From assembly GCA_018607905.1 (NCBI GenBank), contig JABBAP010000052.1, positions 1 through 59,273 of the forward strand: DNA of 59,273 bases, written 5' to 3'. The position numbers and the translations under genes are program-made. Under the pieces are notes generated by a model. It did not search any database. It was not told where the DNA came from and saw only the letters and a program-made list of their open reading frames with translations. This document shows positions 132 to 6,156 of the stretch, piece by piece. The number at the start of each line of letters is the position of its first letter. Position 1 is the first letter of the stretch. Source of the DNA: Paracoccaceae bacterium. GTDB taxonomy: Bacteria; Pseudomonadota; Alphaproteobacteria; Rhodobacterales; Rhodobacteraceae.

Positions 132-2072
132 TTAACTGGCGGCGTCTTTCTGACTGATCACATCAAAGGCAGCGGCCATGAGAGTTTTGGCGTATTCGGT
201 TTGCGGTGCGGCAAAGATTTCTTCGCCTGTACCGGCTTCGACAATGTCACCTTGGCGCATAACCAGAACCTTGTGGCTGAGCGCACGCACAACTTTGAGG
301 TCGTGACTGATGAACAAAAACGCGAGGCCGTATTTCTTTTGTAGGTCACGTAGCAAGTTCACGATCTGGACCTGCACCGTCATATCCAGGGCGGATGTTG
401 GTTCGTCCAGCACAACAAGGCGCGGTTTTTGGATCATCGCGCGGGCAATAGCGATACGTTGGCGTTGGCCGCCCGAAAACTCGTGAGGGTATCTGTCGAT
501 TGTGTCTGGGTCTAAGCCGACCTCGATCAAGATATCTTTCACGGCTTGGCGCGTGTCCGTGTGTTTGGTTTCGGCATGAACGCCAAGCCCTTCAGACACG
601 ATCTGTTCCACCGTCATGCGCGGAGAAAGTGATCCGTATGGGTCTTGAAACACCATCTGCATGTCTCGGCGCAAGGGTTGTAACGCTTTGTTCTTAAGGC
701 CCTGAACATCATTGCCAAGGAACACGACGGGACCATCCGATGAGATGAGGCGCATCATTCCGAGGGCGAGCGTGGTTTTGCCCGATCCGCTCTCGCCAAC
801 AATCCCCAGCGTTTCACCAGCGCGAATTGAAAAGCTGGCGCCGTTCACGGCCTTGATGTGATCCACGGTGTTGCGCATGATGCCCCGTTTGATCGGGAAC
901 CAAACGCGAAAATCTTTGGTGGAGAGGATTTCTTCTGCATCTTCTGCCACTGGGTCTGGGGTGCCTGTGGTTTCGGCGGCCAGCAGGGTTTTCGTGTAGG
1001 GATGTTGTGGGTTTTCAAAAATGTCTTTGGTCGGGCCTGTTTCTACGATTTTACCGTGCTGCATGACACAAACGCGATCCGCGATTTTGCGCACGATGGT
1101 CAGGTCGTGGGTGATAAAAAGCATTCCCATGCCCTCGGCCTTTTGAATGTCTTCAAGAAGGTCAAGGATTTGCGCTTGGATTGTGACATCAAGCGCGGTG
1201 GTGGGTTCATCTGCGATCAACAAATCGGGGCCGTTGGCCAGTGCCATTGCGATCATTACGCGCTGGCGTTGTCCGCCCGACAGTTGGTGTGGGTAATCAT
1301 CAAGACGGCTGGCGGCGTTGCGGATGCCAACCTTTTCAAGAAGGTCCACGCAGGCTGTGCGATAGGGGTTTTCGGACAACCAATCGCCAAGCACGTGCAC
1401 GAGGCAAAGTTGGATTGGCAGAAGAACAAGGCCGATTGCGCCGATCCACAACAGCGCGGCGAAGACGAACCAAAGGAGGGACCAGAGCAAACTGAATAGG
1501 CCGGTGAGGGCGTAGAGAAAGATTGCGACGGCGCCTTCGGGCTGTTCAATCCATGTGAGTGCGCCTTGGCCGCGCAACACGCCGATGCCAGCCGTGATTA
1601 CGACGTATGCAAGCAGTGCGCCAACGAAGAGCAGAAGCGAGCGCAGGGTTACAATTTTGCTGATGCGTTTGGAAACAAAGCCTTGAACGAGCTGCTGCGC
1701 GACGGATTGCCCTTCGGCTGTTTGGTGCAGTGATAACCCTTCGGTCAATTGCTTTTCGATGCTGTGCAGCGGGTTAAGCGAGGTCATCGGTTCTTGGAAA
1801 ATAAAGCTGATGTCGTTGCCGCGCACCGAACGAAGTGTCGCATCATCTGCGCCCACCATTTCTGTGCTACGGTATTGCACCGAGCCCGAAATATCTGCGC
1901 TGTCAGGGAGCAGTTTAACAGTTGAAAGCGCGGTGACAGATTTGCCTGATCCGCTTTCCCCAACAAGAGCGACAGTTTCGCCTGCATTCACGGTGAAACT
2001 GATGCCGTCCACCGCGGGTTTGTTGGTGCCAAAGGCAATGCTTAGGTCTTGGACGTTCAATACTTGGGTCAT
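132..2072 (-). CDS. yejF: YejF-type dual ATP-binding protein of a peptide ABC importer, with a hydrophobic insertion
   Basis: This protein of 646 residues carries two ABC ATPase domains that power the importer encoded just upstream. Domain 1 has Walker A GESGSGKS (38-45), Q-loop at about 93, LSGGQ (264-268) and Walker B (284-290). Domain 2 has Walker A (426-433), FSGGQ (532-536) and Walker B (552-558). Proteins of this kind are usually near 535 residues. The excess lies between the Q-loop and the signature of domain 1, about residues 122-237, and is strongly hydrophobic with what look like three membrane-spanning stretches (about 144-166, 180-203, 205-228). The reading frame is intact and both flanks match the family. 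The gene overlaps the yejE-like gene by 4 bp, so it is translationally coupled. Family assignment is secure; the function of the insertion is unknown. Confidence 0.9.
1362..1710 (-). other. Segment coding the hydrophobic insertion in the first ATPase domain
   Basis: These codons (about residues 122-237 of the YejF-like protein) interrupt the helical subdomain of the first nucleotide-binding domain. The encoded stretch has a basic start (FVSKRISK), then about 85 residues dominated by Leu, Ala, Val, Ile, Phe and Trp with few charges, in three runs long enough to cross a membrane. Normal family sequence resumes at [10 protein letters not shown], which leads to LSGGQ. I do not recognise the insert as any known domain. 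Confidence 0.7.
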
Positions 2073-3184
2073 TTGAACGTCTTTCTTGGATCAAATGCGT
2101 CGCGAACCCCTTCGAAGATAAAGACCAGCAGCGAAAGCATGAGCGAGATGCTGAGGAATGCGGAAAAAGCCAACCAAGGGGATTGCAAATTGTTACGTGC
2201 TTGGAGCGCCAGTTCACCCAGCGACGGATAGGATGGCGGTAGACCGAAACCGAGGAAATCGAGGCCGGTTAAAGCCCCGATTGCGCCTGTTATTTGAAAC
2301 GGTAGGAAGGTGATTGTCGCGACCATTGCGTTGGGCAGCAGGTGGCGGAACATGATTTTCCAATCGGGCACGCCAAGGGCGCGGGCGGCTCGCACATATT
2401 CGAAATTTCGGGCGCGAAGAAATTCGGCGCGAACAAGGCCAACGAGCCCCATCCAACTGAACAGGATGATGAGCACTGTCAGCAATATGAAATTCATCGT
2501 GAAAATGGCCGACATGATGATGATGATATAGAGCATCGGTGTGGAGGACCAAATTTCCAAAATGCGCTGGAAAAACAGATCAACCCAGCCGCCGAAATAC
2601 CCCATGACAGCCCCAGCGGCGATGCCAATGGCGGACGAAAATATTACAACGATAAGGGCAAACACAGTCGAAATACGAAAGCCGTGAATGATACGCGCCA
2701 GCACGTCGCGGGTTTGATCATCGGTTCCGAGCCAGTGGTTTGCATCTGGTGGCGATGGAGCTGTCGCCACGTCATAGTTGATGGTGTTGAAACTGTATCG
2801 CACGGGCGCCCATAGGATCCAGCCTTTGTCGAAACCTTCGGTTGCGGTGTCAAATGTGCCAGCGGCCACTTTTTCGAGGATGTCTTCGGGTTCGTCAAAG
2901 CAATCCTCAACGCCGCCCGTTTTGATGAGGCATTGTACGACGGGATCGGGGTATTCTGGTTCGGTTTCAAAGTCGCCGCCAAAAGCTGTTTCTGGATAGA
3001 ATTGAAACGCTGGCGTGAAAAGTTCGCCTTTGAACGATACCAACAGCGGTTTGTCGTTGGCGACCAATTCGGCGAAAAGGCAGATCACGAAAACGATGCT
3101 GAAAACCCACAAAGACCAAACGGCGCGGCGGTTAGCGCGAAAGTTGGCAAGGCGGCGCCGTGCGATGGATGATTTGAATATCAT
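2069..3184 (-). CDS. yejE: YejE-type peptide ABC transporter permease
   Basis: Inner-membrane permease of 371 residues, OppC/DppC type. After a short cytoplasmic start and first membrane helix (about 20-45) there is a long extracytoplasmic stretch of about 130 residues rich in Asp, Glu and Pro, then the core with about five more helices. The ATPase-contacting EAA loop is visible near residues 265-290 (YVRAARALGVPDWKIMFRHL). The long loop after helix 1 fits YejE better than short OppC proteins. The gene overlaps both neighbours by 4 bp, so yejB, yejE and yejF are probably one coupled unit. Substrates of this family include oligopeptides and peptide-like compounds; the actual substrate here cannot be read from the sequence. 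Confidence 0.9.
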   Translation of the reverse strand: MIFKSSIARRRLANFRANRRAVWSLWVFSIVFVICLFAELVANDKPLLVSFKGELFTPAFQFYPETAFGGDFETEPEYPDPVVQCLIKTGGVEDCFDEPEDILEKVAAGTFDTATEGFDKGWILWAPVRYSFNTINYDVATAPSPPDANHWLGTDDQTRDVLARIIHGFRISTVFALIVVIFSSAIGIAAGAVMGYFGGWVDLFFQRILEIWSSTPMLYIIIIMSAIFTMNFILLTVLIILFSWMGLVGLVRAEFLRARNFEYVRAARALGVPDWKIMFRHLLPNAMVATITFLPFQITGAIGALTGLDFLGFGLPPSYPSLGELALQARNNLQSPWLAFSAFLSISLMLSLLVFIFEGVRDAFDPRKTFK

Positions 3185-4260
3185 GTTTCACGGCTCTCAA
3201 AATCAATGCGCGGATCGACAAAGACATACATAAGATCAGAGATCAGGCTGACGACGAGGCCCATCAAGCCAAAGATGTAAAGCGTGCCAAAGAAGACCGC
3301 ATAATCGCGATCTAGCGCGGCTTTGAAACCAAGAAGGCCAAGCCCGTCGAGCGAGAAAACGATTTCGATGATTAAGGATGATTGGAAAAATACGCCGATA
3401 AAGGCCGCGGGGAAGCCTGCGATAATGATCAGCATCGCGTTGCGAAATACGTGGCCGTAAAACACACGGCTTTCCTTGAGGCCTTTGGCGCGGGCGGTGA
3501 TGACGTACTGTTTTTTGATCTCATCCAAGAAGGAATTTTTGGTCAGCAAAGTCAGGGTTGCAAACGCGCCGATGGTGGACGCCGTGACGGGCAGCACGAT
3601 GTGCCACAGGTAATCTTTGACTTGGCCAAAGAAGCTGAGGTTTTCGAAGTTATCAGACCAAAGGCCGCGATTTGGGAACCATTGGAAAAAAGACCCGCCT
3701 GCGAAAACAACAAGGAGCAAGATCGCGAACAGAAAGCCTGGAATTGCATAGGCCGCGATAATGATGCCAGACGACCATGTGTCAAAGCTGGTGCCGTCTG
3801 ACACGGCTTTGCGGATACCAAGCGGGATCGAAATGAGGTAGGCGAGCAGGGTCGACCAAACGCCGAGTGTGATCGAAACGGGCAGCTTTTCTTTGATCAG
3901 TTCAAGCACACTGATGGAGCGAAAATAGCTTTCGCCAAATTCAAAACGAAAGTAATCGCCCATCATCAAAAAGAACCGTTGGTAGGCCGGTTTGTCCAGA
4001 TTGAATTGCTTTTCCAAATCAGCGATCAACTCGGGCGGAAGGCCGCGCGCGCCCTCGTATATTGTGGATTCGCCACCTGATTGGACCTCTGATCCGCCGC
4101 CAGTGATGCGGTCTGTGGCCGAGCTGTCGTTTTCAAGTTGCGAGATGATCCGTTCGATCGGGCCACCTGGAACAAACTGGATTAGCGTGAAATTGATCAG
4201 CATGATGCCAATCAATGTTGGGATCATTAGCCATAGCCGTCTGAAAATATAAGCGCCCAT
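3181..4260 (-). CDS. yejB: YejB-type peptide ABC transporter permease
   Basis: Inner-membrane permease of 359 residues, OppB/DppB type, the partner of the YejE-like protein. It begins with a membrane helix (about 9-30) carrying the family-typical NFTLIQFVPGGP stretch, followed by an extracytoplasmic segment to about residue 130 and then five further helices. The EAA loop appears near residues 250-280 (ITARAKGLKESRVFYGHVFRNAM). The start codon follows the stop of the binding-protein gene directly, and the 3' end overlaps yejE by 4 bp, so the cluster is a tight operon in the order yejA-yejB-yejE-yejF. Confidence 0.9.
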   Translation of the reverse strand: MGAYIFRRLWLMIPTLIGIMLINFTLIQFVPGGPIERIISQLENDSSATDRITGGGSEVQSGGESTIYEGARGLPPELIADLEKQFNLDKPAYQRFFLMMGDYFRFEFGESYFRSISVLELIKEKLPVSITLGVWSTLLAYLISIPLGIRKAVSDGTSFDTWSSGIIIAAYAIPGFLFAILLLVVFAGGSFFQWFPNRGLWSDNFENLSFFGQVKDYLWHIVLPVTASTIGAFATLTLLTKNSFLDEIKKQYVITARAKGLKESRVFYGHVFRNAMLIIIAGFPAAFIGVFFQSSLIIEIVFSLDGLGLLGFKAALDRDYAVFFGTLYIFGLMGLVVSLISDLMYVFVDPRIDFESRET

Positions 4261-6156
4261 TTAGCGAAGAGCGCCTTGTGATTTGAGGGCGTCGAGCTTT
4301 TCTTGATCGATCCACCACGTGCCGATAACGCCGCGCGAATAGAGCGGTTTGGTTTTCGGGCGGCCAAACACATCCCAATAGGCGAGGTTGTGGCTGCCTT
4401 TGTACCAGTTCGGAACCCAGATGTGCATGCTACGCATAACGCGATCCAGCGAACGCACGGCAGTTTGCATGTCTTCGCGTGTTTCCGCCTGAGCGATTTT
4501 TATGATCAGGGCATCGACAACGGGATTAGCGATGCCAGAATAATTGCTGCTGCCTGCGGTTTTGGCGCCGGTTGAGCCAAAGGTTTGTGCTAATTCTTCG
4601 CCCGGGGATAGGGACATAGACAAGCGCCCAGGAATTAGATCGTAGTCGAATTCCTTTTGGCGTTGCTGCATTTGGGCAGAGTCGATCAGGCTGTAGCGGG
4701 CATCAACACCCAAGCGTTTCAGGTTTTCAACGTAAGGGTTGATGATCCGTTCAAATGCGGGGCTGTCGTCCACCAATTCCAATGCAAGGATTTCGCCCTT
4801 GGCGTTGGTGCGTTTGCCGTTCACGACCTTCCAGCCTGCATCATCGAGCAACTTACCCGCAGCGCGAACTGCTTTTCGATCAACCTGATTGGGGCGCGAC
4901 ACCAACGGAGTGAACGGAGGATCGGTAAAGATTTCGGCGGGTAGTTGACCCCGAAATTCTTCTAATAAGGCGAGTTCGCTGCCTGACAGCACGCCCTCGG
5001 ACTGCATATTGGAATTTTCCCAAAAGCTGTCAGTGCGCTCATAAAGGCCATAAAATAGTGTGCGATTGGACCATTCGAAGTTGAACATCATGCCGATGGC
5101 TTGACGAACGCGAGGGTCCGAAAACTTGTCTTTGCGCATGTTGATCCAAAAACCCTGCGTGCCAGAGGGACGGTCATCTGGAATGGTTTCTTTGATCACA
5201 AAACCCTTGTCTATCGCAGAGAAATTATAACTGTTCGCCCAGTTCTTCGATGTGAATTCTTCGTGGAACAGGAAAGAGCCAGCTTTAAATGCCTCTAGCG
5301 CGACGGTGCGATCAGTGAAATATTCGTAAAGATAGCAGTCAAAGTTGCCTGACCCCTTGTTATGGGGCAGGTCTTTGGCCCAGTAATTTTCAATTTTGCA
5401 ATATTTGATCGAACGGCCCGGTTTGATGTCGCTCGCCGTGTAACCACCCGATGTAACTGGCACATCGATGGTGCTTTCGCCGAAATCTCTGTCCTCGTAA
5501 TAATGTTTCGCTAGGATCGTGAGGCCACCGGCTTGTGCAGGTAAATCGCGTGTATTTACGCCGTCTTTGAAGGTGAATTTAACGCGGTGACTATCAAGCG
5601 CTTCGACTGTTTCAAAATCTTTGTAGATGATTTTGTAAACTGGGTGGCCTTTTTCCATCAGGATGTCGAAGGAAAATACCACGTCTTGCGCGGTGATGGG
5701 GTGGCCGTCTGAAAAGGTTGCCTCGGGCCGCATGTTAAAAATCGCCCACTGGCGGTTTTCGGGGTATTCTATGGTTTCTGCGACATAGCCATAAATACTG
5801 TCGGGTTCATCGCCTGAACTGGTCATCAGGCTGGAATACATCAAGCCGAGGCCTTGCGCGGGATTGCCTTTCAGAATGAACGCATTGAGGCTGTCAAAGG
5901 TGCCCGATGCACCCGAGCCAAGGAACGAAATAGTTCCGCCCTGGGGGGCGTCTGGATTTACGTAATCCCAATGTTTGAAATCAGCCGGGTATTTCAATTC
6001 GCCAAATGTAGAAATGCCGTGCGATTTAGTAACTTTGTCCTGAGCGTTTGCAAGGGTTGCCCCAAGCGCCAACGCGATAAAAACAAAACTTGCAAAAAAG
6101 ATGCTGCGCATAGGTGTTTTGGATGCCGCCGCAGTCTCTGCTTTTGGTTGCCCCAT
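4261..6156 (-). CDS. yejA: YejA-type periplasmic peptide-binding protein
   Basis: Extracellular solute-binding protein of 631 residues, family 5 (peptide/nickel binding), which captures substrate in the periplasm for YejBEF. An export signal is present: a hydrophobic stretch at about 16-36 ending ATLANAQD. The family-5 features of a large two-lobed protein follow, for example YVNPDAPQGGT near 65-75 and the FSDGHPITAQDV segment near 150. The start at 6156 is supported by a GGGAGGG ribosome-binding site; an internal Met at about residue 16 would give a more conventional signal peptide. The gene is first in the operon. Enterobacterial YejABEF takes up microcin C and peptides; whether that holds here is not shown. 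Confidence 0.88.
   Translation of the reverse strand: MGQPKAETAAASKTPMRSIFFASFVFIALALGATLANAQDKVTKSHGISTFGELKYPADFKHWDYVNPDAPQGGTISFLGSGASGTFDSLNAFILKGNPAQGLGLMYSSLMTSSGDEPDSIYGYVAETIEYPENRQWAIFNMRPEATFSDGHPITAQDVVFSFDILMEKGHPVYKIIYKDFETVEALDSHRVKFTFKDGVNTRDLPAQAGGLTILAKHYYEDRDFGESTIDVPVTSGGYTASDIKPGRSIKYCKIENYWAKDLPHNKGSGNFDCYLYEYFTDRTVALEAFKAGSFLFHEEFTSKNWANSYNFSAIDKGFVIKETIPDDRPSGTQGFWINMRKDKFSDPRVRQAIGMMFNFEWSNRTLFYGLYERTDSFWENSNMQSEGVLSGSELALLEEFRGQLPAEIFTDPPFTPLVSRPNQVDRKAVRAAGKLLDDAGWKVVNGKRTNAKGEILALELVDDSPAFERIINPYVENLKRLGVDARYSLIDSAQMQQRQKEFDYDLIPGRLSMSLSPGEELAQTFGSTGAKTAGSSNYSGIANPVVDALIIKIAQAETREDMQTAVRSLDRVMRSMHIWVPNWYKGSHNLAYWDVFGRPKTKPLYSRGVIGTWWIDQEKLDALKSQGALR

Follow-up and report, generated by a model that had tools for sequence, protein, structure and literature searches.

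The window analysed here, the whole of a 59,273-nucleotide stretch from a Paracoccaceae bacterium, starts at base 1 of its contig and carries near that contig end a gene for a dual ABC ATPase whose two halves, NBD1 and NBD2, share one chain (Table 1). The preliminary description of this DNA had called the product YejF-type, and NCBIfam bears this out, with the YejF family NF011713 as the best match of all families. The score misses the curated cut-off of 834 bits, as do those of three insert-free Rhodobacteraceae relatives (733.5, 746.2, and 748.6 bits) and of two other insert carriers (708 and 699.3 bits); because insert-free kin miss it too, the cut-off does not separate an insert-bearing YejF from its relatives. 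The neighborhood is that of a yej operon, in which yejF is preceded by yejE, yejB, and the gene for a YejA-like binding protein (2069–6156, all on the minus strand). Both NBDs are complete; the columns that we take to be Walker A, Q-loop, signature, Walker B, and H-loop are invariant in each half across a 35-row YejF alignment. The protein resembles the YejF of YejABEF and YejBEF-YepA in having two NBDs on one chain, each with ATPase motifs, and in being encoded in one operon together with YejE, YejB, and a binding protein; it differs from them in a 121-residue hydrophobic insert in NBD1. The first 57 positions of the window look by eye like a tRNA gene truncated at the contig end; ARAGORN reported no tRNA in the window.

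Table 1. Coordinates of the yej genes in the window and of the sequence and predicted structural features of NBD1 around the insert.
Feature	Position	Strand	Evidence and remarks
yejF, dual ABC ATPase with insert	132..2072	-	646 aa; best NCBIfam match NF011713 YejF, 718.7 bits
yejE, permease	2069..3184	-	NCBIfam NF011596, 409.2 bits, below cut-off 439
yejB, permease, probable NBD1 partner	3181..4260	-	NCBIfam NF011712, 511.7 bits, above cut-off 445; motif ITARAKGL
Substrate-binding protein gene, yejA position	4261..6156	-	Weak matches to substrate-binding families, all below cut-off
NBD1 Q-loop FQEP, aa 92-95	1788..1799	-	Sequence; invariant in 35 rows
Helix before insert, aa 105-116	1725..1760	-	AlphaFold and alignments; E111 at 1740-1742 aligns with DppD E114
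Insert, aa 117-237 (121 aa), replacing ~8 residues	1362..1724	-	Alignment against insert-free and insert-bearing relatives
Short insert helix, aa 124-134, amphipathic by eye	1671..1703	-	AlphaFold; L039 model has helix 126-136
Predicted first hairpin helix, aa 137-174, hydrophobic core 147-165	1551..1664	-	AlphaFold and hydropathy
Predicted second hairpin helix, aa 178-233, hydrophobic windows 180-198 and 199-217	1374..1541	-	AlphaFold and hydropathy
Helix after insert, aa 238-247	1332..1361	-	AlphaFold
NBD1 signature LSGGQ, aa 264-268	1269..1283	-	Sequence and 35-row alignment

The insert separates the Q-loop of NBD1 from its signature in a reading frame that is open throughout, with normal sequence on both flanks, all of which had been recognized beforehand. 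The distance between the two motifs is 172 residues, versus 59 in 103 of 113 YejF proteins, which places the window protein 113 residues above the norm; the preliminary description had estimated about 110 and had drawn the insert at 1362..1710, within 14 bases of the limits in Table 1. In the remaining ten proteins this distance is 149–200 residues; the corresponding distance in NBD2 is 55–58 in all 113, the window protein included. No insert was detected in NBD2 of any of these proteins, all ten being in NBD1; the collection was assembled partly with insert-bearing queries, so that 10/113 is no estimate of frequency.

The insert is real. G003, assembled as a single contig, and G005, both from the window's genus, carry the same insert, again 121 residues long. 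The position of yejF near a contig end, in a window that begins at contig base 1, could have favored an assembly artefact, and this is refuted by the two additional genomes. Protein-level constraint makes it very unlikely that the insert is an intein, an intron, or another element removed before the protein is mature: among the three genomes carrying what we designate type A, pairwise dN/dS of the insert is ~0.11–0.16, a range obtained with dS near saturation. By inspection, moreover, the junctions have no residues like those of intein splice sites, judged against what we take to be the intein motifs. Together, we regard an artefact or an excised element as exceedingly improbable, and the insert is very probably translated. 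It nonetheless changes fast. Type A inserts are 59–64% identical pairwise as against 90–91% for the rest of YejF, with dN about fivefold that of the remaining protein, and dN/dS reaches 0.54 in type B (L039 versus L043) and 0.23 in type C (L040 versus L121), so that constraint in these types is weaker or less well measured. The GC fraction of the window insert is 0.567, versus 0.539 in the rest of yejF.

Hydropathy analysis identified three hydrophobic stretches in the window insert (19-residue Kyte-Doolittle windows with a mean of 1.4 or more; Table 1), with peak means of 2.42 and 2.56. Among eight inserts so analyzed, five have two such stretches and three (those of the window, L003, and L040) have three. 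An AlphaFold model of the window protein, built from the 35-row alignment (mean pLDDT 87.2, pTM 0.75; block pLDDT 60–87 in the hairpin), predicts a short helix followed by a hairpin of two helices, 38 and 56 residues long, joined by a turn of three residues. The three membrane-length stretches of the preliminary description are thus recovered by hydropathy, while the model merges the last two into one helix. Three spans are unlikely, since the insert starts and finishes in a cytosolic domain, which fits an even number of spans, and since the model shows a single hairpin after the short helix; two spans are the likelier arrangement. The model of the type B protein L039 (helices 107–119, 126–136, 139–162, 170–213, and 218–227) has the same layout of a short helix and a two-helix hairpin, despite no detectable relation between the two inserts. 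Both models are of single chains.

From hydropathy and the AlphaFold models we infer that the insert would cross the membrane. Charge distribution mostly favors this: between the two best segments, Asp and Glu outnumber Lys and Arg in 9/10 inserts, and the N-side flank is richer in Lys and Arg than the inter-segment stretch in 8/10, among them L041, whose segments were poorly chosen by the script. Exceptions to a positive-inside pattern are the window insert, which has no Lys or Arg after its second segment, and those of L121 and L042, which have no excess before the first. Hydropathy is no topology measurement, and the hairpin might instead stay in the cytosol and pack on YejB, NBD2, or another protein; with segments this hydrophobic, and helices as long as membrane spans should be, we consider such packing improbable. 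A further reading casts the loop between the spans as a periplasmic or lipid sensor whose signal would gate the ATPase. L042, with 71 residues between its best segments, would offer room for one. In most inserts the inter-segment stretch, as set by hydropathy (18–35 residues in eight of ten, seven in another), is too short for a folded sensor, and the turn in the window model is of three residues; we regard a sensor as decidedly improbable.

The site of the insert lies close to where the permease should hold NBD1. In E. coli DppABCDF, DppB is reported to contact Thr100, Ser101, Asn103, and Glu114 of DppD, with a Lys243–Glu114 salt bridge at the coupling helix of the permease (PMC12136057). These four DppD residues (structure 8z1v) align with Thr97, Ser98, Asn100, and Glu111 of the window YejF, which are invariant across the 35 YejF rows, and the insert starts six residues past Glu111. 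The preliminary description had placed it in the permease-contacting helical subdomain, which this alignment supports. Of the two halves, NBD1 corresponds to DppD and OppD and NBD2 to DppF and OppF, which by homology makes YejB the likely neighbor of NBD1. The YejB motif ITARAKGL is compatible with the spacing of Thr239 and Lys243 in DppB, in what we take to be the DppB sequence. A hairpin might have offset the loss of a permease span, and no such loss was seen in those carrier permeases that the script could read: neither gene was found for L042 and L043, YejB alone was read for L039 and L041, and YejE alone for L040.

Among solved structures, the dual ATPases of M. tuberculosis OppABCD and DppABCD (8j5q, 8wd9) are closest to the window protein by sequence and fold, and their OppD and DppD chains head a Foldseek search, which also lists EttA. 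At the insert site the solved chains (8j5q, 8wd9, 8z1v), in contrast to the insert carriers, stay within two residues of an insert-free YejF in the alignments listed. The presence of EttA recalls the arm of ABC-F proteins, which is reported to lie inside NBD1 (residues 94–136 of M. tuberculosis EttA; PMC8782954), to be rich in charged residues, and to bind the ribosomal L1 stalk (PMC6723617). Arm and insert are alike in position; the insert is hydrophobic and belongs to a transporter, and we claim no homology. The EttA encoded in the window genome itself has a Q-loop-to-signature distance of 81, versus 59, with the extra residues in the same region of a loose alignment. A search of open-licence papers with a few phrases turned up no report of an ABC importer ATPase with a membrane hairpin.

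Such inserts are rare, in keeping with the earlier judgement that this one is unusual for its family. We surveyed 394 Rhodobacteraceae genomes, mostly one per genus, with a 103-residue insert-free query spanning the site, to which 393 gave a match. A gene with an insert matches this query only by halves, so that a best E value better than 1e-40 was taken to mean a contiguous gene; the four carriers (G000, G036, G413, and G420) gave 1e-29 to 1e-26, and among the best-scoring matches listed all were contiguous at the site. Four of 394 genomes thus have an insert, with about ten more not classed, in a census blind to a second, insert-bearing copy beside a contiguous one. G000 and G036 had already been recognized as carriers; of the other genomes, 26 picked by eye for E values worse than 1e-40 or no match were all rechecked with full YejF. 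Besides G413 and G420 with their inserts, this group comprised ten genes contiguous at 62–73% identity, four contiguous at 48–54% (G291, G143, G322, G219), two cut off by the edge of a contig (G207, G115), four genomes with only 46–48% matches, possibly to paralogues (G083, G185, G383, G414), and four without a match at the limit (G170, G178, G180, G427). A search of the 394 genomes with an insert profile gave four matches and missed G420, and the counts therefore rest on the junction query and its follow-up.

At the genus level, the insert is present in 3/33 genomes of the window's own genus, which excludes that all close relatives carry it, an outcome the preliminary description had allowed for. 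The genus of G413 is richer, with 7/13 genomes matching a whole 173-residue query, flanks included, at 57–100% identity; one of the seven is identical to L040 over the query region. The genus of G420 consists of one genome. A scan of named genomes kept 80 loci from 589 relatives, five of which (L039–L043) have inserts, a proportion biased upward by a query that itself contained the insert. Altogether, hydrophobic inserts of 98–149 residues occur at the same point of NBD1 in other Rhodobacteraceae, and at least 15 genomes have a hydrophobic insert at this YejF site. None was seen outside the family in a class-wide search of 387 genomes, 330 of which matched, the best-scoring matches listed being contiguous. 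On rechecking 52 weak genomes from that search, 40 matched, some paralogue-like and none starting at the site, and 12 gave no match at the limit; the match in G700 starts at residue 80.

Several records in these collections deserve separate mention. L042, besides its NBD1 insert, has about 25 extra residues in NBD2 before the Q-loop (gene at 3908–6031). Its record is named Oceanobacillus sp. HTM 045, yet the yejF is Rhodobacteraceae-like and the insert coordinates equal those of G036, so that the name seems wrong. L110, in a record named Nocardioides marinus DP1N28-1, likewise has a Rhodobacteraceae-like yejF (66% identity) and is mislabelled or contaminated.

We sorted the inserts into six types: A (window, L002, L003), B (L039, L043), C (L040, L121, and others), D (L041), E (L042), and F (L133). 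Roseovarius spongiae HN-E21 and Pseudooceanicola spongiae HQ09 are strains with a type B insert. Lengths are equal among the three of type A and the two of type B, and within two residues in type C (eight rows, seven distinct). Profile comparison free of flanks linked B with E (E value 1.1e-5) and the combined BE with C (1.5e-5), at HHalign probabilities of ~80; BE with D gave 0.006, A with D 0.024, and the other seven of 11 pairs 0.09 or worse. With reversed targets as control, all 11 pairs scored 0.05 or worse. Class-preserving shuffles reached the pair score in 0/150 cases for both B–E pairs, 1/150 for L043–L040, and 2/150 for L040–L042, and in five or more of 150 for all other pairs. By sequence, then, types B, C, and E are related, D perhaps, and A and F not detectably.

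A tree of the 113 proteins built without the insert columns requires six changes between presence and absence of the insert, at least four of them forced by supported branches. This tree has long branches, one joined to the carrier L042, and six changes are still required after five long-branch or odd rows are dropped. A single clade of the ten carriers, set against 98 other rows in a quick tree, was rejected (p-AU 2.9e-8), and one origin for all inserts is not supported by the tree of 113 proteins. Repeated gain, for A, for F, and for the B–C–E group, is the simplest account; one ancient gain followed by very many losses, or spread of the segment by recombination, is possible. The like layout of the window and L039 models could itself stem from shared descent faded beyond detection.

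Searches for a source of the insert were negative within their scope: no Pfam family above cut-off in eight inserts (best E 0.02), no NCBIfam family above cut-off for the window insert, a best E of 0.047 in PHROGs, one PDB chain at E 0.43, no second copy in its own genome at E up to 10, and no plasmid match at E up to 1. Weak matches within the genus (G024, G028, G015, G010; E ~0.01) were read as chance hydrophobic matches. A second place in G003 (E 4e-4), within what we read as a cytochrome-oxidase-like frame, was set aside as chance, and a match in G244 (E 3e-4) lies in what we read as an FtsK-like frame.

Taken as a whole, these observations suggest a model in which the window YejF would be an integral-membrane ATPase. 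A short loop between two helices after the NBD1 Q-loop has been replaced by a cytosolic short helix and a putative hairpin; the hairpin would cross the inner membrane twice and, since the loop adjoins the residues that hold the coupling helix of the permease, would run up along YejB. It would thereby tether NBD1 to YejB, and the tether may bias how the transporter assembles or how ATP hydrolysis is coupled to the transport of peptides or muropeptides. We would accept this model about as readily as reject it. A self-anchored ATPase, or one with an added regulatory module, as the preliminary description had suggested, is plausible. Counted against a tether are the nearly universal absence of the insert among relatives, which live without it, the fast change of the insert with the dN/dS of type B, and the pLDDT of the hairpin.

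The main rival explanation is that of a tolerated decoration: the loop would put up with additional sequence, and the insert would cross the membrane harmlessly and do nothing specific, with selection keeping only hydrophobicity and frame. The fast change, the rare and patchy distribution, and the existence of several types without detectable shared sequence fit such a decoration. It accounts less well for lengths that are constant within types A and B and near-constant in C, for the confinement of inserts to NBD1 and never NBD2 among 113 proteins, and for the similar hairpin predicted in two types without detectable relation; we consider it rather unlikely. Extending the tether model to the family, several Rhodobacteraceae lineages may have made a peptide-importer ATPase integral to the membrane, repeatedly, through hairpins at one loop of NBD1, a broader proposition that we hold tentatively and at somewhat less than even confidence.

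In the textbook view of ABC importers, the ATPases are soluble proteins, distinct from the membrane permeases to which they are clamped. If the broader proposition is true, the carriers would represent a new architecture among ABC importers: the ATPase would contribute a membrane part of its own to the permease, and the transporter would have structurally unequal halves. A hairpin at the coupling interface would also be a natural experiment on what holds an NBD to its permease, and on the reason for altering only one NBD of the two. The physiological setting is indicated by work on Agrobacterium, which reports that YejBEF and its binding protein YepA take up muropeptides and recycle cell-wall fragments, that YepA is widespread in Rhodobacterales, and that the same role is suggested there (PMC9790009). 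Given that role, altered coupling in YejF might affect how these bacteria maintain their cell wall.
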